In this document: positions 9,863 through 48,591 of the stretch, in pieces
How positions within the stretch are numbered: the first letter of the stretch is position 1
How the letters are laid out: each line of letters begins with the position of its first letter
Source of the DNA: an uncultured Methylophaga sp.
Lineage (GTDB): Bacteria > Pseudomonadota > Gammaproteobacteria > Nitrosococcales > Methylophagaceae
Assembly (NCBI RefSeq): GCF_947259025.1
Contig: NZ_CAMYKO010000004.1
Coordinates: forward strand, 248,001 to 312,000
Reading direction: 5' to 3'
DNA length: 64,000 bases
Program-made: the position numbers and the translations under genes
The notes under the pieces: generated by a model
Database searches by the model: none
Told to the model about the DNA's origin: nothing
Seen by the model: the letters and a program-made list of their open reading frames with translations, nothing else

Positions 9863-10708
9863 TTATTCACCCAGGCTATGACCGGTGACAAAGCTGAGCA
9901 GTTCCCGCCAGTTCAGCCTCTGCCGGTCGAGGTGAAACAGGACTTTACCCGCGATCTGCGCTGTGGGCAGGGTGCCCCAGAAACGGCTGTCACGACTGTT
10001 GTCACGGTTATCGGCGAGCACAAAAAAGCGGTTTTCAGGCACGCGCGAGGCGACTGCCCCCTCAGGAATTCGGGTTTTATTGCGCATGGCATCAAGATAG
10101 GGTTCCGACTGCCACTCGCCATTGATAAACAAGCCGCCCTGATGCACTGCGACCCGCTCACCGGGCAGCCCAACCACCCGCTGCAATACCGATTCGCCGG
10201 TTTCCGGATGGATAAACCAGATGACGTCACCACGCCCGATAAGCGCAGCAGAGGGCTGGCGCTCAAGCAACACCCAATCGTACTTTTTGATACTGCCACT
10301 CATCTGGTTCCCCGATACCTGCAGTGGCATCACGCCGGTCTTAACTACCAGCAGTGCCAGCCATATCGCGATAAGCAAGACAAAACTGATCCAGAACAGC
10401 AGATAGCCATACCAGTGCGGGGTCGTCGGCATCACCACCGGCCCTTCATCACGAGCGCGGTGCCAGCTAACCAGGGTAATGATGAGCAACACCAATAAGG
10501 ACAACAGCCCGGCTGATAGCAAAATGAGTCCGGACTGGGGAAAATGGCGGGGCAACAACAGCCAGGCGAAGCCCGGCAACAAGGTAAGCAGCAAACACCA
10601 GCGCGCTGCCGTCGTTCGCCCCAGGTAATACAAACCCAGGCCCGGTGTCAGCCAGTTGAGCCAGGCTGCCAGAGCTGCACTGTGATGTTTAATCTGCAAA
10701 GGCTGCAT
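9863..10708 (-). CDS. signal peptidase I-like membrane protein, catalytic dyad apparently lost
   Basis: 281 residues. About four hydrophobic segments in the first 125 residues are followed by an S26 domain: YDWVLLER, GRGDVIWF, VVGLPGERVAVHQGGLFING and the box-E motif LADNRDNSRDSRFWGTLP are clear. At the catalytic serine motif (usually GxSMxPT) the sequence is GNQMSGS, with Q135 in the serine position. At the general-base lysine (usually KRxVGLPGD) it is QRVVGLPGE, with Q176 instead of lysine. Both changes were checked in the codons (CAG and CAG). It is therefore probably not an active leader peptidase; a true LepB would be expected elsewhere. It forms a likely operon with the small exported protein that follows. 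Confidence 0.8.
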   Translation of the reverse strand: MQPLQIKHHSAALAAWLNWLTPGLGLYYLGRTTAARWCLLLTLLPGFAWLLLPRHFPQSGLILLSAGLLSLLVLLIITLVSWHRARDEGPVVMPTTPHWYGYLLFWISFVLLIAIWLALLVVKTGVMPLQVSGNQMSGSIKKYDWVLLERQPSAALIGRGDVIWFIHPETGESVLQRVVGLPGERVAVHQGGLFINGEWQSEPYLDAMRNKTRIPEGAVASRVPENRFFVLADNRDNSRDSRFWGTLPTAQIAGKVLFHLDRQRLNWRELLSFVTGHSLGE

Positions 10709-10751
10709 CCGCCATCCTCCTTGTGCCGCGAGTTCGTTGCCTGGCCCAAGC

Positions 10752-12014
10752 TTACCAGTACCAGAGCCAGGTCGCGACTACGCCACTGATACCGGCCAGC
10801 ACCAGCGGACCGGCGGCTTTCAGTCCCAGTGCGCGGCCACCGATTAAGCCACACATTATGCCCTTAACAATGCTGTTGGCGCAGGCGGCAATCACGCAGC
10901 CCATCACGAACAGGCGGGCGGACAACTGATCTTCCGCCATGCCCACCAGTGACAACATGATGGCATCGACATCTGCAATCCCCGACAGCGCCGCCAGTGT
11001 CATCAGCCCGGCTTCGCCGTAGGCATTTCTCAGCACCACACTGAGCAGCATCACCGCTGTCAGAATTGCGCCGAAAGTCAGTGCAGTTTTCAACTCGAGT
11101 GGATTTTGCAGAATAGAAGAGGCATCAGGCACCTTGCCGGCATTACCGCGGTGGAAAAACAGCAAAGGCGCATAAGTCAGCAGTGCCATCAACACCACCG
11201 GCGGCCAGAGTGAGGCCAGCATCGACGGCGCCAGAAGACCGACGATGATCAGCATGCGGATAAACATAGTGCCGCAGGCAATCAGAATGCCGCTGGCCGC
11301 CACAGACACCACGCCATGATTGTGGTGACCCAGCCGAGATAAATGCAAGGTTACTGCAGTCGATGATGCCAAACCGCCAAACAGACCGGTGAACAAGATG
11401 CCACGACGGGCACCGCCGATTTTGATAGCCACATAACCGGCAAAGGAGATCGCGGCAATCACCACCACCATCATCCAGATCCGGTACGGGTTGAGGGCTT
11501 CCCAGGGACCATAACCCTGATCCGGTAACACCGGCAGCATCACTACTGAAATCAGCAACAGCTTGATGCCGGCACGTAATTCTTCCACCTGCAGGCGGCT
11601 GACCAGGCCATGAAGTTGGGGTTTGTAACTGAGCAGCAACACCGCCACGACCGCGGTGGAAGAGGCAACCAGCACCTCGCCGCTGGTCGCCAGCGCGGCC
11701 AGTACAAATACCAGCAAGGCGGCCACCAGACTGGTAATGCCCCACTCGCCCTCCTGCTGCTGCTTGGCCAGAAAGATCATGCCCACGACTACCGCCAGCG
11801 CGGTAAACCCAAACCCCAGCACCAGCGCGCCGAACTGCTGGGCCAGCAAACCGAAACCACCGCCCAACAGCCCAATCAGACCGTAAGTGCGAACACCGGC
11901 GATGCGCTGGCCTTCCTGGCTGGCCCGCTCCTGCCAGCCACGTTCGACCCCGATCATCAAGCCGATGGCAAGCGCTACCAGAAGAAAGTACAGGCTTTCA
12001 ATTTCTGCTGTCAT
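10752..12014 (-). CDS. MgtC/SapB-DUF4010 membrane protein
   Basis: 420 residues and strongly hydrophobic, about 12 membrane segments. The N-terminus (FLLVALAIGLMIGVERGWQE, then GVRTYGLIGLLGG) matches the MgtC-like opening, and the rest resembles DUF4010 (GARRGILFTGLFGGLASSTA, LSGIADVDAIMLSLVGMA). Its function is unknown; related proteins are proposed transporters or stress membrane proteins. Its start overlaps the stop of the upstream BASS transporter gene by four bases (ATGA), indicating translational coupling. Confidence 0.8.
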   Translation of the reverse strand: MTAEIESLYFLLVALAIGLMIGVERGWQERASQEGQRIAGVRTYGLIGLLGGGFGLLAQQFGALVLGFGFTALAVVVGMIFLAKQQQEGEWGITSLVAALLVFVLAALATSGEVLVASSTAVVAVLLLSYKPQLHGLVSRLQVEELRAGIKLLLISVVMLPVLPDQGYGPWEALNPYRIWMMVVVIAAISFAGYVAIKIGGARRGILFTGLFGGLASSTAVTLHLSRLGHHNHGVVSVAASGILIACGTMFIRMLIIVGLLAPSMLASLWPPVVLMALLTYAPLLFFHRGNAGKVPDASSILQNPLELKTALTFGAILTAVMLLSVVLRNAYGEAGLMTLAALSGIADVDAIMLSLVGMAEDQLSARLFVMGCVIAACANSIVKGIMCGLIGGRALGLKAAGPLVLAGISGVVATWLWYW

Positions 12015-12928
12015 GGGCTGTCACTCCTGTCACGCCATTGCCAGAAAGCGGCAAACACAGCACCACTCATATTGTGCCAGATACTGAATAGAGCTCCGGG
12101 CAGCGCCGCCAGCGCGGTGAAATTTTTCAGCGCCAGTGCCACCGCGAGGCCGGAGTTCTGCATGCCCACTTCAATCGCCAGCGTCCGGCACACCACGCTG
12201 GAATAGCCCAGCGCGCGGGCAACCAGAAAACCCAGTGTCAGACCAGCCAGATTGTGCATCATCACCGCCGCCAGCAAGACCAGTGACAAACTACTCATTC
12301 GTGACTCATTGAGCGCCACGATAATGGCAATAATGGCGATGATCGCGACCATCGCCAGCAATGGGCACAGTGGCTGCAAAGGACGCACCAGTCGGGGTAA
12401 AAAGCGGTTCAAAGCCACACCGGCGGCTACCGGCAGGATCACCAGGGTCAGAATTGTCTGCAACATCGACCACACCGGCACCTCAATGGCCGCATCAATA
12501 TAAAGCCAGCTCAGCCACGGCGTCATGACCACCGCAAGCAGGGTTGATACCGCAGTCAGCGAAATCGATAAAGCCACATCGCCGCCGGCAAGATAGGTCA
12601 TCACATTGGATGCGGTGCCACCGGAACAGGCGCCGACCAGAATCAGGCCGGTCGCCAGCAAGGGATCCAGCGCCAGGGCCTGAGCAATCAGCCAGGCCAG
12701 CAGCGGCATCAGACCGAATTGCAGACACACGCCTAACACCACCAGCAAAGGCATGGTCAGCACCCGGCGGAAATCGGTCGCAGTCAGGGTCAGCCCCATG
12801 GCAAACATGATCACTGCCAAAAGCGGCAAAATAGCCGGCTTCAAAGGCAGCCACCACGACGGCTGCCACCAGGCCAGAAAGCTGAACATTACCGCCCACA
12901 GCGGGAATAAACGCGTGATGACTGTCAT
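12011..12928 (-). CDS. BASS-family (bile acid:sodium symporter-like) transporter
   Basis: 305 residues from ATG 12928 (MTVITRLFPLWAVMFSFLAW). A longer frame to 13075 was rejected because it would leave 4 bases to the divergent gene at 13080. About 9-10 membrane segments are visible, with family signatures AVIMFAMGLTLTATDFRRVL, LVGACSGGTASNVMTYLAGG and IEVGMQNSGLAVALALKNF. BASS proteins import organic anions with sodium; the substrate here is unknown. No good ribosome site is visible before this start, so a start at 12985 is possible. Confidence 0.8.
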   Translation of the reverse strand: MTVITRLFPLWAVMFSFLAWWQPSWWLPLKPAILPLLAVIMFAMGLTLTATDFRRVLTMPLLVVLGVCLQFGLMPLLAWLIAQALALDPLLATGLILVGACSGGTASNVMTYLAGGDVALSISLTAVSTLLAVVMTPWLSWLYIDAAIEVPVWSMLQTILTLVILPVAAGVALNRFLPRLVRPLQPLCPLLAMVAIIAIIAIIVALNESRMSSLSLVLLAAVMMHNLAGLTLGFLVARALGYSSVVCRTLAIEVGMQNSGLAVALALKNFTALAALPGALFSIWHNMSGAVFAAFWQWRDRSDSP

Positions 12929-13079
12929 TTGTAAAATAATGTAAACATGGTGATACAAGCCTTGCCAGCCGGGCTCAACTATCATTAAATTGCCAGTTCT
13001 GATGCGCTGCCGGCATGGTTGAGGAACTATTGCTGCGACTGACAACCCAAATATACCGAACTTTACGGACCGCAATCAC

Positions 13080-30907: not shown

Positions 30908-33091
30908 TCAGAGCAGATCGATGGGATCAATATCCATTGACCAGCGCAGTTTCCGCGCCAGTTTATGGCGGCTGATGCTGTCCGTACATCGATCCAGAAG
31001 CTGATGCAGGGGTTTGCGCTCGGCACTGTTCAGCAGCAGCTGTGCCCGGTACCGTCCGCCTTTTTTCTCCATAATCGCCGGAACCGGCCCCATGACCATC
31101 ACAGTCTGCTGAGACTGACTGCCCAATATGCCTGCCACCTCTCCCAGAAAGTCCATGGCCAGACTGCGATCTTTGGCTTCTGCCCGAATCACCGCCCAGT
31201 GACTGGCTGGCGGCATGCCCATTTCAATACGTTCCTGCAACAGTTTATCTGCAGTCAGCGCGTAACCTTCACGGATAAGATTTCGCCAGAATGGATGTTG
31301 CGGCTGTTCACTCTGGATCAATACTTCGCCTTCTTTGGCACCGCGACCGGCACGTCCGGTGACCTGGGTAATCATTTGTGCCAGGTTTTCGGTTGCGCGG
31401 AAGTCGGCACTGTATAAACCCTGATCGGTATCCAGCACGCCGACTAGTGTCACATCATGAAAATCATGGCCCTTGGCCAGCATTTGCGTGCCCACCAGGA
31501 TCCGCGCCTGCCCCTGTCGGATTTCGCTGACCATTTTGTCAAAGGCATTAACCCGTTGGGTGCTGTCTCGGTCAACGCGGATCACCGGTGTATCGGGAAA
31601 CAGAGTCTGCAGATGCTGCTCAATTTTTTCGGTGCCGGCGCCGTAGCTTTTGAGCTGTTTCGACTCACACTCAGGACATTTATCAGGCAGTCGCTGGATA
31701 GACCCGCAATGATGACAAAACAGGATATGGCGTTGTTTATGCACCACCATGCGGGCATCACAATGGTTACACTGCGCCTGCCAGCCACAATCATGACACA
31801 TCAAAACCGGCGCATAGCCCCGACGGTTGATAAACAAAATGACCTGGTTGCCGGCTTCCAGATGCTGGTGCATTTTTTTCAATAACTGTTCGGTCAGACC
31901 ATGGTCAGGGTGTGCTCCCTGACTGTCTATCAAATGCACAGCGGGCAGACTGGCACCGGTGGCACGCTGTTGTAACTGCAGAAATCTGAAACGTTGTTGC
32001 TTTACCTGGTACAGACTTTCCAGCGATGGTGTGGCACTGCCCATCAGGACCGGCACCCCCATTTTCTGCGCCCTTATCAAAGCCACCTGACGGGCGTGAT
32101 AGCGCAGTCCATCCTGCTGTTTGTAGGAACTGTCGTGTTCTTCATCAATGATGATCAAGCCCGCTTCCGGCAACGGCGTAAACACAGCACTGCGGGTACC
32201 GATGATGATTCTGCCCAGCCCCTCTCTGGCCAGCAGCCAGCCCTGTTTTCTCTCGCCGTCGGAGATGGCTGAGTTCAATACCACGATGCTGGTATTCAGT
32301 CGCTGTTTAAAACGCTCCACAAACTGGCCGGTGAGACCGATCTCGGGAATCAGAATCAGCACCTGTCGCCCGGCAGCCAGCATTTTTTCACTTAATGCGA
32401 TATAGGCTTCGGTTTTACCGCTGCCGGTAATGCCTTCCAGCAGAAACGGTTGAAACTGCTCTCGGCTCTGCCAGACTTCGTCTACGACCTGTTGCTGTTC
32501 GCTATTCAGCGCACAAGGTAAATTCAGTTCTGTACGGGCAATGGGCAGCTTCGCCTGTGGTTTTTGTGTAATCCGCTGTTGTTGTTGCAAACTTTTCAGT
32601 GAAGTTGAGACATTACCCAGCTGGGCTTTTATCGCCGACTGACTGATGCCTTCCGGATAATCTTCCAGCAGACTTAAAATGGCCTGTTGTTTCTCGCCTG
32701 TTTTTTTATTATCGCTGTCTTCATTTTTGAACCACCAGGCTTCATGTTGCAGCTCAGATGAATCGCCTTTTCGCAGTCTCTTAGGCAGCACTGTCTGCAG
32801 GCATTCACCCAGGGGATGATGGTAATAGCGGCTGACCCAGAGCACAGTTTGCAATACTTCTTCAGGCAGCAGTGGCTGGGCATCGATAATCTCATCAATG
32901 CTTTTTAACTTGCTGCCTTCTTCATTGCTTTGGACATCACTGGCACGGATTACGATGGCAATGCAGCTTCTGCCGGCAAAATTAACTCTGACCCGCATAC
33001 CGCTCTGCCAGAAACTGGCCGGTTTATCGGTCAGATAGTCAAACAGCTGTCTGAGCGGAGTCGGGATCGCGAGATGAACGATGCTTGCCAT
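30908..33091 (-). CDS. priA: primosomal replication helicase PriA
   Basis: 727 residues. The N-terminal DNA-binding domain is followed by helicase motifs: Walker A LLEGITGSGKTEAY, DEEH box LIIIDEEHDSSYKQQDGLRY, MGSATPSLESL, zinc-binding cysteines (LMCHDCGWQAQCNHCDARM; LFCHHCGSIQRLPDKCPEC), and VGTQMLAKGHDF plus TQVTGRAGRG. PriA restarts collapsed replication forks by loading the replisome through the primosome. Confidence 0.95.
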   Translation of the reverse strand: MASIVHLAIPTPLRQLFDYLTDKPASFWQSGMRVRVNFAGRSCIAIVIRASDVQSNEEGSKLKSIDEIIDAQPLLPEEVLQTVLWVSRYYHHPLGECLQTVLPKRLRKGDSSELQHEAWWFKNEDSDNKKTGEKQQAILSLLEDYPEGISQSAIKAQLGNVSTSLKSLQQQQRITQKPQAKLPIARTELNLPCALNSEQQQVVDEVWQSREQFQPFLLEGITGSGKTEAYIALSEKMLAAGRQVLILIPEIGLTGQFVERFKQRLNTSIVVLNSAISDGERKQGWLLAREGLGRIIIGTRSAVFTPLPEAGLIIIDEEHDSSYKQQDGLRYHARQVALIRAQKMGVPVLMGSATPSLESLYQVKQQRFRFLQLQQRATGASLPAVHLIDSQGAHPDHGLTEQLLKKMHQHLEAGNQVILFINRRGYAPVLMCHDCGWQAQCNHCDARMVVHKQRHILFCHHCGSIQRLPDKCPECESKQLKSYGAGTEKIEQHLQTLFPDTPVIRVDRDSTQRVNAFDKMVSEIRQGQARILVGTQMLAKGHDFHDVTLVGVLDTDQGLYSADFRATENLAQMITQVTGRAGRGAKEGEVLIQSEQPQHPFWRNLIREGYALTADKLLQERIEMGMPPASHWAVIRAEAKDRSLAMDFLGEVAGILGSQSQQTVMVMGPVPAIMEKKGGRYRAQLLLNSAERKPLHQLLDRCTDSISRHKLARKLRWSMDIDPIDLL

Positions 33092-33092
33092 G

Positions 33093-33320
33093 AATTAATA
33101 ACTAAAAGAAAGATAAAAGAATATTTTTGATGATGTTAGTGTTTTATGCCTGTGGATTGTTGGACGGATTCAATTAAGGCATCGAATTCAGCATCTTATC
33201 CTGTAATGGCATTGTTGATAACTTTTTTGCTGCGGGGCGAATTAGCTGTGGACAAAATAGCGACTTATCCACAGGCAAAGTTATCCACAACTTGTGATCG
33301 ATCTTATTGGCGACTTATAC
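33093..33320. other. DnaA-box cluster with AT-rich flank (origin-like)
   Basis: The priA-folA intergenic region (289 bases) contains two perfect DnaA boxes TTATCCACA (33265-33273 and 33281-33289), an inverted near-box TGTGGACAA at 33247-33255 (TTGTCCACA on the minus strand), and a weaker inverted one at 33151-33159. An A/T-rich stretch (about 33093-33147) lies to the left, as an unwinding element would. Inference: a replication origin or a DnaA-controlled promoter. dnaA itself is not in the window. Confidence 0.5.
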
Positions 33321-33380
33321 AGGACTTATTGAGCATCACATTTAACGGTATCCTTAGGGTTTGACTGACAGGATTATTGA

Positions 33381-33875
33381 ATGAAAATCGCGATCATTGT
33401 TGCCATGGATCAGCAGGGACTGATAGGACGGGATAATGGACTGCCCTGGAGGATTTCCGCTGATTTACAGCATTTCCGCCGCACTACAATGGGCAAGCCT
33501 ATTGTGATGGGTAGAAGCACCCATGAGTCGATAGGCCGGCCGCTGCCGGGACGGCGGAATATCGTGATCACCAGTCAGCCTGATTATCAGGCTGCAGGCT
33601 GTGATGTCGTGCATACTGTTGATGAAGCACTGGATTTATGCCGTCAGCAGGAAGAAGTGATGATTATGGGTGGTGCCTCGCTGTATCAGCAGCTGTTGCC
33701 GCTGGCCGACACGCTTTATCTGACCCGCGTTCATGTCACGCTCAACGGTGATACCTGGTTTCCTGATTGGTCAGCAGCGGATTGGGAGCTCGTCAGCCGT
33801 GAAGATCATCAGGCTGACGATAAAAATGAATATGACTACAGTTTTATGCAGTATCAACGGCGGGCGAAGTCATAA
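33381..33875 (+). CDS. folA: dihydrofolate reductase
   Basis: 164 residues, typical length. Motifs: MKIAIIVAMDQQGLIGRDNG, LPWRISADLQHFRRTTMGKP, IVMGRSTHESIGRPLPGR, then EVMIMGGASLYQQLLPLADT. It reduces dihydrofolate to tetrahydrofolate with NADPH. The start is 92 bases after the second DnaA box. The 3' end overlaps the convergent small gene by 32 bases. Confidence 0.93.
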   Translation: MKIAIIVAMDQQGLIGRDNGLPWRISADLQHFRRTTMGKPIVMGRSTHESIGRPLPGRRNIVITSQPDYQAAGCDVVHTVDEALDLCRQQEEVMIMGGASLYQQLLPLADTLYLTRVHVTLNGDTWFPDWSAADWELVSREDHQADDKNEYDYSFMQYQRRAKS

Positions 33876-41426: not shown

Positions 41427-42966
41427 ATCGGCTCAACGGTCTGATAAGCTGTCTGAGCCTGATTCCCAGCACCATTAGCAATACAAAATAAACGACCGCA
41501 GCACCACCAATAAGACCAAATAATTGCCCCGCGCGCTGCCAGGCTGTCCACTCGCTCCAGGCTGAGGCCTGCGGTGTTAACCACACCAACAGGGCCAGCA
41601 TCACAGCATTGGCCAACAGCAGTTTGAGTCCGAGCACCGCCCAGCCGGCGTTAGGCGAATAGACACCGCGTTTTCTCAGGCCGATATAGAGCAGGCAGGC
41701 ATTGAGCGCAGCTGACAGGCCAGTGGCCAGTGCCAGACCCACATGGGCCAGATACATCATCAGGATCACATTCAGCACCATATTGGTGACCATGGCGATA
41801 ATGCCGATTTTGACCGGGGTTTTGGTGTCCTGGCGGGCGAAATAGCCCGGCGCCAATACCTTGATAAAAATAAAGGGTAACAGGCCCAGACCATAGGCCA
41901 TCAGGCTCAAAGAGGCCATGTAGGCATCATCACTGGCGAACTCGCCATACTGGAACAGAGTGATCAACAAGGGCTGGGCCAGCGTTATCAGCCCTACCGC
42001 AGCCGGTGTGCCAATAATAAAGACCCAGCGCAAAGCCCAGTCGATAGTGTCTGAAAAGCCCTCTGCTGACTGACTGGCATGCTTTTTCGACAGGCTGGGC
42101 AGGATGACTGTGGACAGGGCAATACCGAATACCCCCAGTGGAAACTCGACCAGGCGGTCAGAGTAATACAGCCAGGATATACTGCCGGTGACCAAGAAGG
42201 AGGCCAACAGCGTATCCAGCAGCAGGTTGATCTGTGACACTGACACCCCGAACATGGCCGGAATCATCAGTCGGGTAATTTTTCTCACGCCCTCACTGCG
42301 CCAGCCCCAGCGCGGTCTTGGCAGCTTGTTGATTCGCCACAGAAACGGCAGTTGAAACAACAGCTGCACCACCCCGCCTATAAACACGCCCCAGGCCAAA
42401 GCCTTGACCGGTTCATCCAGTTGCGGTGACAACCAGATAGCAGCCCCGATCAAAGATAAATTCAGAAATACCGGGGTAAAGGCCGGTACCGCAAAGCGGC
42501 CGAAGCTGTTGAGGATGGCACCGGCCAGAGCGGTTAGCGAGATAAACATTAAATAAGGAAAGGTGATAAACAGCAGTTCACCGGCTAGTTCCAGCTTGAA
42601 GGGATCACTGATAAACCCCGGTGCGAAAATCATGATAATGACCGGCGCGGCCAGCATGCCGACAGCGGTAATCAGCATCAGAATGAAGGCCAGAGTACCG
42701 CTGGTACGGGCAATCAGTTCTCTCAGCGGCTCCTCGCCGCGTTCTCGGAATTCGGCCAGCACCGGAATGAAGGCCTGGGAAAAAGCGCCCTCGGCAAACA
42801 AGCGACGTAGAAAGTTGGGGATTTTAAAAGCAACGAAAAAAACGTCGGCGCCCAGACCGGCGCCAAACAAACGGGCGATCACAATATCCCGCAGAAAACC
42901 CAGGATCCGTGACAGGAAGGTCATTACACTGACAACTGCGGTAGACTGAAACAGCTTTTCGCTCAT
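41425..42966 (-). CDS. murJ: lipid II flippase MurJ
   Basis: 513 residues, about 14 membrane segments, MOP superfamily. Signatures: TFLSRILGFLRDIVIARLFG, AGLGADVFFVAFKIPNFLRR, LFAEGAFSQAFIPVLAEF, LASFLVTGSISWLYYSDRLV, EFPLGVFGIALSTVILPSLS. It moves lipid II across the inner membrane for peptidoglycan synthesis. Confidence 0.95.
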   Translation of the reverse strand: MSEKLFQSTAVVSVMTFLSRILGFLRDIVIARLFGAGLGADVFFVAFKIPNFLRRLFAEGAFSQAFIPVLAEFRERGEEPLRELIARTSGTLAFILMLITAVGMLAAPVIIMIFAPGFISDPFKLELAGELLFITFPYLMFISLTALAGAILNSFGRFAVPAFTPVFLNLSLIGAAIWLSPQLDEPVKALAWGVFIGGVVQLLFQLPFLWRINKLPRPRWGWRSEGVRKITRLMIPAMFGVSVSQINLLLDTLLASFLVTGSISWLYYSDRLVEFPLGVFGIALSTVILPSLSKKHASQSAEGFSDTIDWALRWVFIIGTPAAVGLITLAQPLLITLFQYGEFASDDAYMASLSLMAYGLGLLPFIFIKVLAPGYFARQDTKTPVKIGIIAMVTNMVLNVILMMYLAHVGLALATGLSAALNACLLYIGLRKRGVYSPNAGWAVLGLKLLLANAVMLALLVWLTPQASAWSEWTAWQRAGQLFGLIGGAAVVYFVLLMVLGIRLRQLIRPLSR

Positions 42967-43013: not shown

Positions 43014-43652
43014 GTGGCATTATTCAAAAGCTTTAATTCTAAGGGTTTTTTACTGTTATATCTTGTTGTCTTTGCGGCAATGCTGCTGGTGTGGTTGTCG
43101 AGACAGGAAAGTGCGGGTGAAGACAAGCGGCAGATTCCCGCCTCCCTGCAGGCTGAAATTGTGTCGCCAGCCGGTGATATCCCACAGTTTCTGCTGCAGT
43201 CGACGGCTAGGCAAAAATTAACGGAACAATCGCTGCGCGGTAAATGGACTTTTATCTACTTCACGCACCCACATTGCCTGCCCTACTGTGAGCCAGTCCT
43301 GGAAGTGCTGGAAAACCTGCAAACATTGCTCGCCAATGATGAACAGCAGTTTGTGGTGATTAATTTTGACAGTGAGCGCAGTGGAGAACTTTCATCCTTG
43401 CTGGCTTCACGCGAGATGAGTCTGCCGGTGTTCAGTGGCGAACAATCCATGCTGGAAATGTTGGCCGGGGCTTTTGAGTTTCTCTACTTGCGTGAAGAAA
43501 TTGGCGACATCGCACAGATAGAACAACAGCACAGCTTATTTCTGACCGATCCCAAAGGGCGTCTCTACGCCCGCTTTGAACCGCCATTCAGCTCACTGTC
43601 GATACAGCAGCAGTTTTTTGCCCTGCGCAACTTTTATGCGCGCAGTGAATAA
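43014..43652 (+). CDS. SCO1/SenC-like thiol/copper protein
   Basis: 212 residues from a GTG start. One N-terminal membrane anchor (about 11-28) precedes a thioredoxin-like domain. The SCO copper-binding residues are present: CxxxC at C88 and C92 (THPHCLPYCEPV) and H173 in QQHSLFLTDPKGRLYARFEP. By family knowledge it acts in cytochrome oxidase CuA assembly or periplasmic redox. No oxidase gene is next to it. It is divergent from murJ and overlaps the convergent oxyR end by 19 bases. Confidence 0.8.
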   Translation: MALFKSFNSKGFLLLYLVVFAAMLLVWLSRQESAGEDKRQIPASLQAEIVSPAGDIPQFLLQSTARQKLTEQSLRGKWTFIYFTHPHCLPYCEPVLEVLENLQTLLANDEQQFVVINFDSERSGELSSLLASREMSLPVFSGEQSMLEMLAGAFEFLYLREEIGDIAQIEQQHSLFLTDPKGRLYARFEPPFSSLSIQQQFFALRNFYARSE

Positions 43653-44560
43653 TCGGTATCTTCCAGTGCGTCAGACACCGTCTGCGCCAGTTGTTCCAGG
43701 GTCTGGGTGCGGCGGAAGCTGGGACGCCAGACCAGGCCGATTTCACGGGTGGCCTGATCATCTTTGTTTTCCAGCGGTACCAGGCTGATATCAGAATGGC
43801 TGACCATATCAGAGTTGATCGCCATATCAGGTATCAGAGTAATGCCCAGGCCACTCGCCACCATTTCAATCAAAGTATAAAGGCTGGTGGCCTGAACACT
43901 CCGGCGCTGCGCCGATGCCGGCAACTGGCAGGCGCTGAGCGCGTGTTCACGCATGCAATGCCCTTCTGCCAGCAGTAACAACTCATTGGTGGGCAGCTCA
44001 GACGCTTTCAGTACCCGCTTCAGTGATAAGCGATGCTGCTTTGGTACAGCGACCCAGAACGGCTCACGCGCAAAAATACGGTGTGTCAGACCGCGGATAT
44101 TAAAAGGAAAGGCCAGTACCGCGACATCAATACTGCCGGCTTCCAGCTTATCCAGCAGCCTTTCCGACTGGTCTTCAATCAGAACAATTTCCAGGTCGGG
44201 CAGTTGCTGGCGAACAGTGGGTAGTACCTTGGGTAATAGAAATGGGCTGATGGTTGGAATGATGCCAACCTGTATGCGGCCTGAAAGCGGGTTTCTCTCA
44301 GACTGCGCCAGATCAACGAGGTCCTCACTTAGCGACAGGATCTGCAATGCGCGACCTGCTATTTCCTCGCCGATGGCCGTGGGTAACACTTTACGATTGG
44401 TCCGCTCTAGCAGGGAGACTTCGAGTAACTCCTCTAAATCCTGAATACCGGCACTTAAAGTTGACTGGGTAACAAAACATTTCTCTGCTGCGTGACCAAA
44501 ATGTTTTTCATCGACCACGGCCGTGAGGTACTGCAATTGTCGCAAAGTGGGGAGTCTCAT
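43634..44560 (-). CDS. oxyR: peroxide-sensing regulator OxyR
   Basis: 308 residues, LysR family. The N-terminal helix-turn-helix (LRQLQYLTAVVDEKHFGHAA, FVTQSTLSAGIQDLEE) is followed by an effector domain with the OxyR redox cysteines C202 and C211 (GHCMREHALSAC), nine residues apart as in E. coli C199/C208. It activates peroxide defence genes when oxidised. It is divergent from the rubredoxin gene. Confidence 0.93.
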   Translation of the reverse strand: MRLPTLRQLQYLTAVVDEKHFGHAAEKCFVTQSTLSAGIQDLEELLEVSLLERTNRKVLPTAIGEEIAGRALQILSLSEDLVDLAQSERNPLSGRIQVGIIPTISPFLLPKVLPTVRQQLPDLEIVLIEDQSERLLDKLEAGSIDVAVLAFPFNIRGLTHRIFAREPFWVAVPKQHRLSLKRVLKASELPTNELLLLAEGHCMREHALSACQLPASAQRRSVQATSLYTLIEMVASGLGITLIPDMAINSDMVSHSDISLVPLENKDDQATREIGLVWRPSFRRTQTLEQLAQTVSDALEDTDYSLRA

Positions 44561-44780
44561 AATCGGATTTTCCGCTTAAAAGTCATTAATTAATCAGTAT
44601 AGTTGAATTTTAAAATTATTGCTGTTTCTGCAGCAGTATGTTTTAAAACAATATTAAATCTGTCTGACCAGCAAAGCTGCAGATAGTTTTCCTGTGACTG
44701 CGCTCAAACGTTAGCAGCCCATATTTGTTAGAATCGCTTTGACTCGGGGTAATTCAAACAATGATTTAGGAGAACAAAAA
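44561..44780. other. oxyR-rubredoxin intergenic region
   Basis: 220 bases, AT-rich near oxyR. ATAG half-sites occur at about 44598 and 44683, but no convincing full OxyR site was found by eye. It holds both divergent promoters. Confidence 0.35.
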
Positions 44781-44945
44781 ATGAAACAATGGCAGTGCAT
44801 CGTCTGTGGATTCATCTATGATGAAGCAGAAGGTTTGCCTGAAGAAGGCATCGAGCCAGGCACCAAGTGGGAAGATATTCCGGATGACTGGGAATGCCCT
44901 GAATGTGGTGTTGGCAAAGAAGATTTTGAAATGATCGAAATCTGA
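44781..44945 (+). CDS. rubredoxin
   Basis: 54 residues from ATG 44781 (AGGAGAAC upstream; the longer frame from 44739 contains this ribosome site). The two iron-binding CxxCG motifs are [10 protein letters not shown] and [12 protein letters not shown], with the usual 30-odd residue spacing and the [10 protein letters not shown] signature. It is a single-iron electron carrier; partner unknown. A terminator follows directly. Confidence 0.95.
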
Positions 44946-44960
44946 TCATTCCATTACAAT

Positions 44961-45002
44961 AACAGCCAGTTTTGCGGTTCACGTTAAGCTGGCTGTTTTT
45001 TA
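44961..45002 (+). terminator. intrinsic terminator after rubredoxin
   Basis: AACAGCCAG (44961-44969) pairs with CTGGCTGTT (44989-44997) and is followed by T's. It lies 16 bases after the rubredoxin stop and just before recF, so recF needs its own promoter or read-through. Confidence 0.8.
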
Positions 45003-45021
45003 TACTGAGAAAGTAAACCCT

Positions 45022-46137
45022 GTGCTGGCGCAAATTAGAACTCTTTCTTTTCGAAATATCAAGCAGGCAGATATCACCCCGGCACAGGGCATCAATCTTA
45101 TTATTGGTGAAAACGGCTCCGGCAAAACCAGCCTGCTGGAAGCGATCTACATGCTTGCCATGGGACGCTCTTTTCGATCCCGGTCACTAAAGAATGTCGT
45201 CAACCATGATGAGCAACGGCTGACTGTGTTTGCCAGGTCGCTCGATCAAACCCCTATCGGTTTACAATACGATCTTGCTACCGGGTTACAGATTCGCCTC
45301 AATAATGCGCCACTCAAACGTCTCTCAGATCTTGCTACACATCTGCCACTTCAGTTTATCCCTGCTAACTGTCACCAGTTTTTTGAGCTTGGTCCCAAAT
45401 ACCGAAGACGGATGGTGGACTGGGGTGTGTTTCACGTGGAACATCAATTCAATTTCCACTGGCAGTCATACAAAAAAGCCCTGCAACAACGAAATGCAGC
45501 GATAAAAAAACTGAAGCCAATTAAGGAAATTCAACTCTGGGATAAGTATCTCGTCGAGCATGGTCTGGTTATCAACGCTATGCGTGAACGCTATCTTCAG
45601 ACCTTACTGGAATACTTTCTTCCCCTCTTCCATCAACTTTGTCCTGAGCTGAATGACTATCAATTTAATCTACGCTATCTTCGGGGGTGGAATAAAGATA
45701 GTGATTTTGCGACTTATCTCATAGCGCATATAGAGCGCGATCGTGCTCTTGGCTACACCCGTTCAGGGGCCCATGCAGCTGACTGGTCGCTTAGAGTTAA
45801 TGGCGCCGACCCCTATGAAATGCTTTCAAGAGGTCAGCAAAAACTGTTTTTCCTGGCACTGAGTATGGCGCAGATTTTGATCCTGGCAGAGAAAAAACAA
45901 CTCACCTCAACCGTATTATTGATTGATGATTTAAGCTCAGAGCTGGATTGGCACCATCAAAATACAGTGATTAATACACTGCGGTCGTTACCAGTCCAAT
46001 GCTTTATCAGCAGCACTAACGAAGAGCTAACAGGGCTGATTGATCAGAAAAAAGAGAAAATGTTCCACGTGAAACACGGCGTCATTTTTGATAGAGAGGG
46101 TGATGCTATCAACGGGGACTCAGACATAGTAGAATAA
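45022..46137 (+). CDS. recF: DNA replication and repair protein RecF
   Basis: 371 residues from a GTG start. SMC-like ATPase: Walker A at about 29-36 (IIGENGSGKTSLLEA), signature MLSRGQQKLFFLALSMAQ, Walker B VLLIDDLSSELD. RecF loads RecA at gaps with RecOR. The coding sequence contains two ParB-type parS sites (45428-45443 and 46061-46076). The usual neighbours dnaA and dnaN are absent; gyrB follows after 39 bases. Confidence 0.94.
   Translation: MLAQIRTLSFRNIKQADITPAQGINLIIGENGSGKTSLLEAIYMLAMGRSFRSRSLKNVVNHDEQRLTVFARSLDQTPIGLQYDLATGLQIRLNNAPLKRLSDLATHLPLQFIPANCHQFFELGPKYRRRMVDWGVFHVEHQFNFHWQSYKKALQQRNAAIKKLKPIKEIQLWDKYLVEHGLVINAMRERYLQTLLEYFLPLFHQLCPELNDYQFNLRYLRGWNKDSDFATYLIAHIERDRALGYTRSGAHAADWSLRVNGADPYEMLSRGQQKLFFLALSMAQILILAEKKQLTSTVLLIDDLSSELDWHHQNTVINTLRSLPVQCFISSTNEELTGLIDQKKEKMFHVKHGVIFDREGDAINGDSDIVE
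45428..45443. promoter_or_regulatory. parS site 1 (within recF)
   Basis: TGTTTCACGTGGAACA matches the chromosomal ParB-binding consensus TGTTNCACGTGNAACA in full. It encodes FHVEH in recF. It is the exact reverse complement of site 2. Confidence 0.85.
46061..46076. promoter_or_regulatory. parS site 2 (within recF)
   Basis: TGTTCCACGTGAAACA matches the same consensus in full and is the reverse complement of site 1, 633 bases away. It encodes FHVKH near the RecF C-terminus. parS sites are usually clustered close to oriC. Confidence 0.85.
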
Positions 46138-46140
46138 TAG

Positions 46141-48591
<2,451 letters not shown>

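Follow-up and report, generated by a model that had tools for sequence, protein, structure and literature searches.

This Methylophaga species very probably has its chromosomal replication origin (oriC) in the non-coding gap that separates priA from folA, as does, judging by the conservation of the gap, the family to which the species belongs. The window, that is, the whole stretch of 64,000 nucleotides that was analysed, corresponds to positions 248001-312000 of contig C4 in the genome referred to here as G000, which comprises 2.70 Mb in 8 contigs. The earlier note on this DNA had put forward a candidate origin between the two genes, and the proposal is well supported by the conservation of an array of DnaA boxes in the gap and by a switch of GC skew in the region; in the related genomes G006 and G009 the switch lies no more than 2 kb from the array. 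The module would be an ordinary, continuous oriC of the DnaA-box type, at an address that was not found described in print.

An oriC often adjoins dnaA, the gene of the initiator protein. An address at priA would give an origin for a whole family in which looking beside dnaA or mnmG fails. According to the part of PMC4285127 that is available, the dnaA cluster was long taken as the marker of oriC, with exceptions in many bacteria, including Escherichia coli; DoriC 10, in the part of its description at hand, chose a gidA-side site for some Gammaproteobacteria (PMC6323995). A term search of the gammaBOriS paper gave no match for Methylophaga or priA (PMC7174414). Among the matches listed in a literature search, none of the titles and abstract openings dealt with a chromosomal origin of Methylophaga or with a priA-adjacent oriC, and a prior prediction in DoriC or in a subscription paper is possible.

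The DnaA-box array and its A/T-rich flank

A pair of perfect DnaA boxes whose starts are 16 bp apart, an inverted near-consensus third box, a weaker fourth box and an A/T-rich stretch had been described within the 289-base gap, and all of them are present (Table 1). They correspond to boxes 4 and 5, to box 3, to box 2 and to positions 33093-33140, which are 83% A/T. A further inverted site, box 1, was absent from the box list of the earlier note. A one-mismatch or perfect box stands at the place of box 1 in 9 of the other 16 genus loci and in 4 of 5 further family loci, and the position of box 3 reads as a perfect box in 12 of the 17 genus loci. A scan for promoters and terminators gave a result at chance level.

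Table 1. Features of the candidate origin and of the loci compared with it. Positions are those of the window, except in the last rows, where they are positions in the named locus.
Feature	Position	Strand	Remark
priA, replication restart helicase PriA	30908-33091	-	NCBIfam NF004067 and TIGR00595, above cut-off
Entire candidate oriC module	33091-33323		DUE and box array
Candidate DNA unwinding element (DUE), A/T-rich	33091-33140	none	abuts priA start
priA-folA gap	33092-33380		289 bp, non-coding
DnaA box 1, CAATCCACA	33151-33159	-	weak in window (2 mismatches)
DnaA box 2, TTATCAACA	33213-33221	-	1 mismatch; position conserved among relatives
DnaA box 3, TTGTCCACA	33247-33255	-	1 mismatch
DnaA box 4, TTATCCACA	33265-33273	+	perfect
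DnaA box 5, TTATCCACA	33281-33289	+	perfect; 16 bp after box 4, start to start
Right flank, partly conserved	33290-33323		basis: alignment of 16 genus gaps and consensus of 46 arrays
Weak sixth box-like direct site, TTATACAGG	33315-33323	+	2 mismatches
folA, dihydrofolate reductase, right neighbour	33381-33875	+	NCBIfam NF008037, above cut-off
recF	45022-46137	+	TIGR00611 and NF011501, above cut-off; split from dnaA-dnaN
parS site, exact	45428-45443		inside recF
parS site, exact	46061-46076		inside recF
gyrB	46171-48591		beside recF
dnaA-dnaN candidate-origin clusters, other family	L175 1493; L178 1439; L182 11962		
Paired modules	L060 (1494, 3942); L061 (4898, 7514); L068 (1765, 4224); L071 (3117, 5704)		
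Paired modules on one contig	L074 2160 and L083 7572		

Stability within the gap, taken in windows of 50 bp, is lowest in the one that starts at 33091 (82% AT). Only two windows in the 64 kb fall below it, and the lowest of all, starting at 33090, is the same stretch. This low-stability segment sits just outside the box cluster, on the side of the inverted boxes, its melting being a prediction. From this arrangement we infer that DnaA binding, melting, helicase loading and initiation occur at the priA-folA gap. DnaA-ATP would load on the inverted boxes 1-3 and on the direct boxes 4-5, giving two half-arrays that would face opposite ways, as do boxes R1 and R4 of E. coli. The DnaA filament would melt the A/T-rich stretch beside the start of priA, and DnaB helicases loaded at the melted stretch would set off bidirectional replication.

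The oriC of E. coli K-12, located between mnmG and mioC (NC_000913) and 232 bp long as annotated, likewise does not lie beside dnaA. There too, an A/T-rich segment adjoins a first inverted perfect box (R1) and a direct perfect box (R4) stands at the far end, whereas the neighbouring genes, mnmG and mioC, are different, as are the number and the spacing of the boxes. The E. coli origin also contains many GATC sites (judged by eye, uncounted) and E. coli possesses SeqA, whereas the Methylophaga gap holds only two GATC sites and a SeqA profile search gave no match in five of five genus genomes, with a positive E. coli control. With no SeqA match in these genomes and only two GATC sites in the gap, sequestration of the E. 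coli SeqA type is not expected.

Conservation of the module at priA

The array lies upstream of priA in all 17 genus loci in which the 5' end of priA is in view, that of the window included; an eighteenth locus (G018) was left out, its priA being a fragment at a contig end. Throughout the genus the boxes follow the pattern minus, minus, plus, plus with start offsets of 34, 18 and 16 bp, and 116-122 bp separate box 2 from the start of priA in 16 of the 17 loci. For the seventeenth, G022, the offset was taken from a later piece of a broken priA frame. The priA of G022 (C1:1438928-1441106, L032) was matched as three consecutive pieces, which suggests frameshifts or sequencing errors. The distance to folA is variable and amounts to about 1.8 kb in G006. 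Since the distance to priA is nearly constant and that to folA is not, the module travels with the priA end.

Within the family, the exact three-box spacing was found in 44 of 57 genomes (28 of the 36 of good quality), with one exact copy per positive genome except in five that have two. A priA match was obtained in 6 of the 13 genomes without the exact spacing and its 5' end was visible in 5, and the array is present in each of these 5, with offsets of 33-34, 18 and 16 bp and one box spelled outside the search pattern.

In public genomes, the exact three-box spacing occurs in 46 stretches, of which 38 are located at priA/folA, 7 at mnmG or mnmE, and one (L049, 263 bp) could not be placed. Among the 38, which include 23 from Methylophaga records, L070 shows folA only and L074 is an argS-side copy. 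Six of the seven others are upstream of mnmG (L048, L058, L085, L086, L091, L092) and one is beside mnmE (L063). The naming of mnmG and mnmE relies on NCBIfam for six of the seven, five of them above the curated cut-off and one, the truncated frame of L086, below it; L058 was named by its N-terminus only. Denitrificimonas caeni is among the seven. The mnmG-side arrays of D. caeni and of gammaproteobacterial MAGs share the order and spacing of the three boxes (minus, 9 bp, plus, 7 bp, plus) and likewise have a left flank rich in A/T and, upstream, an inverted site that resembles a box. They differ in being upstream of mnmG rather than priA and in their flanking consensus. Their address is a classical one, that of the E. 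coli oriC.

Sites resembling the IHF motif lie between boxes 1 and 2 in 30 of 46 family arrays, compared with a mean of 11.75 in mononucleotide shuffles, the arrays being related to one another. No IHF-like site was detected between boxes 1 and 2 in the window, and these sites are given no weight here.

GC skew and other possible addresses

The GC skew, corrected for coding strand, was fitted with a model of a single break in bins of 500 bp, 1 kb and 2 kb. In the 552 kb covered of contig C4 of G000, 1-kb bins gave a breakpoint support of 281-296 kb with the array at 281.2 kb, 15 kb from the best breakpoint. With 500-bp bins the support is 278.5-296.5 kb and includes the array; 2-kb bins give 286-296 kb, which leaves the array just outside, at a loss of 2.8 log units. 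The raw skew minimum, at C4:290472 (window position 42472), is displaced rightward from the array by 9 kb. Thus, the skew of G000 alone places the origin at about 281-296 kb and not at dnaA, and does not separate the array from the recF side. The relatives give a narrower placement. In G006, a single contig, the breakpoint is at 304 kb (support 303-305 kb) and the array at 305.7 kb; in G009 the breakpoint is at 1986 kb (support 1986-1987 kb) and the array at 1988.0 kb, both with 1-kb bins. With 2-kb bins, the array's own bin is the best breakpoint in both genomes. With 500-bp bins, the array of G009 loses 3.15 units, though only about 2 kb separate it from the optimum. In 20 samples of 6 kb from G006, 8 of the 11 at 0.54-1.90 Mb had positive skew, and of the 9 that run from 2.06 Mb across the end of the sequence to position 1, 7 had negative skew. 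For G022, whose array is at 1438.7 kb, the raw curve over 160 kb has its minimum beside recF at 1426.2 kb, a distance of 12.5 kb. As a separate observation on strand composition, the AT skew is unusually high (0.24-0.29) at positions 10001-13000 of the window, where two long frames lie on the minus strand.

The earlier note had stated that, if its proposal was correct, oriC is not next to dnaA in this organism, and had named a skew minimum elsewhere, for example at dnaA, as the finding that would speak against its proposal. The skew analysis brought no such refutation and strongly excludes dnaA as the switch point: with 1-kb bins the log-likelihood loss in G000 is 1.1 at the array, 85.7 at dnaA and 113.8 for a model with no break, and the loss at dnaA is 41.2 log units in G006 and 90.1 in G009. 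The dnaA gene is at C4:139533 and dnaN at C4:140956, about 141 kb from the array, in the order mnmE-yidC-yidD-rnpA-rpmH-dnaA-dnaN and without recF-gyrB (dnaA was named by Pfam, the other genes by reading of the sequence). Across seven members of the genus, this one included, the contigs that hold both place dnaA about 103-217 kb from the array. Within 2 kb of dnaA there is no box cluster in G000, G006 or G009, only 3, 0 and 2 scattered one-mismatch boxes, respectively. On the skew and the absence of a box cluster together, dnaA was rejected as the origin. The mnmG gene (C4:208603-210444), 71 kb from the array, was likewise rejected: it is outside the skew support, and none of the contig's eight top-scoring box positions belongs to a cluster at mnmG.

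The parS sites some 12 kb away had been cited as an independent sign of a nearby origin, and exact copies do occur 12-13 kb from the array (Table 1). In G006 and G009, recF-gyrB with a parS site is found 14-17 kb beyond the array. Exact parS sites lie less than 20 kb from the array in G000, G006, G009 and G022, and G006 has an additional exact copy 55 kb away on the opposite side. A dif-like site, expected roughly opposite an origin, is 1.68 Mb from the array in G006 (54% of the 3.135-Mb genome) and 1.52 Mb in G022 (49% of 3.107 Mb). The sole dif-like match of G014 is 828 kb from the array (25% of about 3.3 Mb, in 3 contigs), which speaks against the placement, that of G000 is on a different contig, C5, and no dif-like site was found in G009 within three mismatches. 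Among the matches listed, the first 100 of 240, the KOPS-like motif GGGNAGGG on C4 is on the minus strand at 12 of 20 sites to the left of the array, as expected, and at 11 of 16 sites to the right too; it is on the minus strand at 15 of 15 sites on C1 and on the plus strand at 31 of 36 on C2. In the absence of a switch among the 36 sites on C4, KOPS polarity neither supports nor places the origin.

An OxyR-like gene and recF are separated by 461 bp of A/T-rich DNA (44561-45021). This gap includes the 80-bp stretch of lowest stability in the 64 kb, starting at 44577, and is without a box of one mismatch or fewer. Placing the origin in or next to recF-gyrB, 11-15 kb rightward of the array, and treating the priA array as a secondary DnaA site would accommodate this stretch, the raw skew minimum of G000 and a support interval that extends to 296 kb, the two parS sites inside recF and the raw minimum at recF in G022. 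We nevertheless consider such a placement very unlikely, given that no box with one mismatch or fewer occurs anywhere in 43652-46889 and that the 1-kb-bin support in G006 and G009 excludes recF, which is at 319.6 and 2003.7 kb, respectively; even the 2-kb-bin support of G006, which extends to 315 kb, stops short of it. Moreover, tatC and neighbouring long frames at 34.5-39.7 kb are on the minus strand and may lower the local skew. Less likely still is that, instead of an origin, the array forms a promoter of priA regulated by DnaA, or a site at priA that titrates DnaA. Such a role would agree with an array that abuts the start of priA at a nearly constant distance throughout the genus. It fits poorly with the occurrence of the identical three-box spacing at mnmG or mnmE, and not priA, in seven other records, with the unwinding-prone stretch attached to the array, with the coincident skew switch in two relatives and with the absence of a second cluster of comparable score from the stretches covered.

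The remaining alternative is that the boxes have clustered by chance. Boxes with one mismatch or fewer are not enriched across the window, which has 50, with an average of 43.8 in shuffled sequence. Scored over 300 bp, the array reaches 8, the highest value in the 552 kb of C4 covered, where the next separate cluster scores 5, and the array is the top-scoring box cluster in four genomes over the stretches covered (552 kb in G000, 360 kb in G006, 360 kb in G009 with 40 kb masked, and 160 kb in G022). Twelve Markov contigs of equal length gave top scores of 4, 4, 4, 4, 4, 4, 5, 5, 5, 6, 6 and 9, so one of the twelve outscored the array. Since a random contig can reach 9, clustering by itself is merely suggestive, and it is conservation and skew that decide. 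Order, orientation and spacing are conserved at 22 of 22 priA 5' ends inspected in the family (17 genus loci and the 5 from family genomes without the exact spacing), down to 52% PriA identity within the genus. On these comparisons, a chance origin of the cluster is already refuted by conservation, and its probability is negligible. An oriC in the priA-folA gap is thus the reading that we retain.

Probable change of address and paired modules

In another family of the same order, which appears to be Nitrosococcaceae, no array was found at priA in six loci. Dense, opposed half-arrays of DnaA boxes lie instead between dnaA and dnaN in three genomes of that family (G023, G027, G028), of each of which 32-80 kb was covered. 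These clusters resemble the priA module in having opposed half-arrays within a gap, and differ in their spacing, their place beside dnaA and the lack of a priA array; they are candidate origins by their boxes only. A box cluster at dnaA-dnaN in a second family suggests that the address of the origin has probably changed within the order. With a probable dnaA-side and a priA-side origin inside one order, both the change of oriC address and the need for a nearby dnaA become testable.

Other orders of the class have a different, partly degenerate DnaA cluster upstream of priA in four of six loci (present in G029, G032, G036 and G037, loci L039, L041, L044 and L045; absent from G031 and G034). Its layout is typically plus, minus, minus in steps of 14 and 12 bp, with another box about 180 bp off. 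The 12/14-bp core has five matches in 369 genomes of the class; one of these is the array at priA in G036, and the other four show no priA match in their loci of roughly 3 kb. On the short contigs available the skew has no switch: it rises on both sides in G029, has mainly one-sided coverage in G037 and is nearly flat in G032, while the contig of G036, at 3.9 kb, was outside the comparison. As no skew switch accompanies them, these clusters are not claimed as origins.

A second array is located between argS and priA in 5 of the 57 family genomes, in the same orientation as the first and about 2.5 kb from it (Table 1). The window genome has no second array, and its argS-priA gap of 84 bp contains no box. 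Bipartite origins, as defined in the available parts of PMC4285127 and PMC4403523, usually have dnaA as the spacer according to the former. The five genomes recall those of Bacillus subtilis and Helicobacter pylori in that box clusters flank a spacer; they differ in that the spacer is priA and each side carries a complete module with its own A/T-rich block. The window genome has a single copy. Natural paired arrays of this kind can be put to the test, and a defined piece of 230 bp may be of use for building replicating plasmids in Methylophaga.

The two copies within one genome are 60-69% identical, whereas in the two closest pairs of genomes corresponding copies share 73-94% identity. Identity being lower within than between genomes, the duplication predates the split in those pairs, both copies having been kept. 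In L061, the argS-side copy matches the folA-side copies of other genomes (70-73%) no less closely than their argS-side copies (58-71%), and the five pairs may or may not stem from a single duplication. It is conceivable, though in our view less likely than not, that in this family the origin left the dnaA cluster for priA and that some members of one of its genera carry paired, diverged oriC modules with priA as the spacer, forming a bipartite or dual origin of which both parts were kept over a long divergence.
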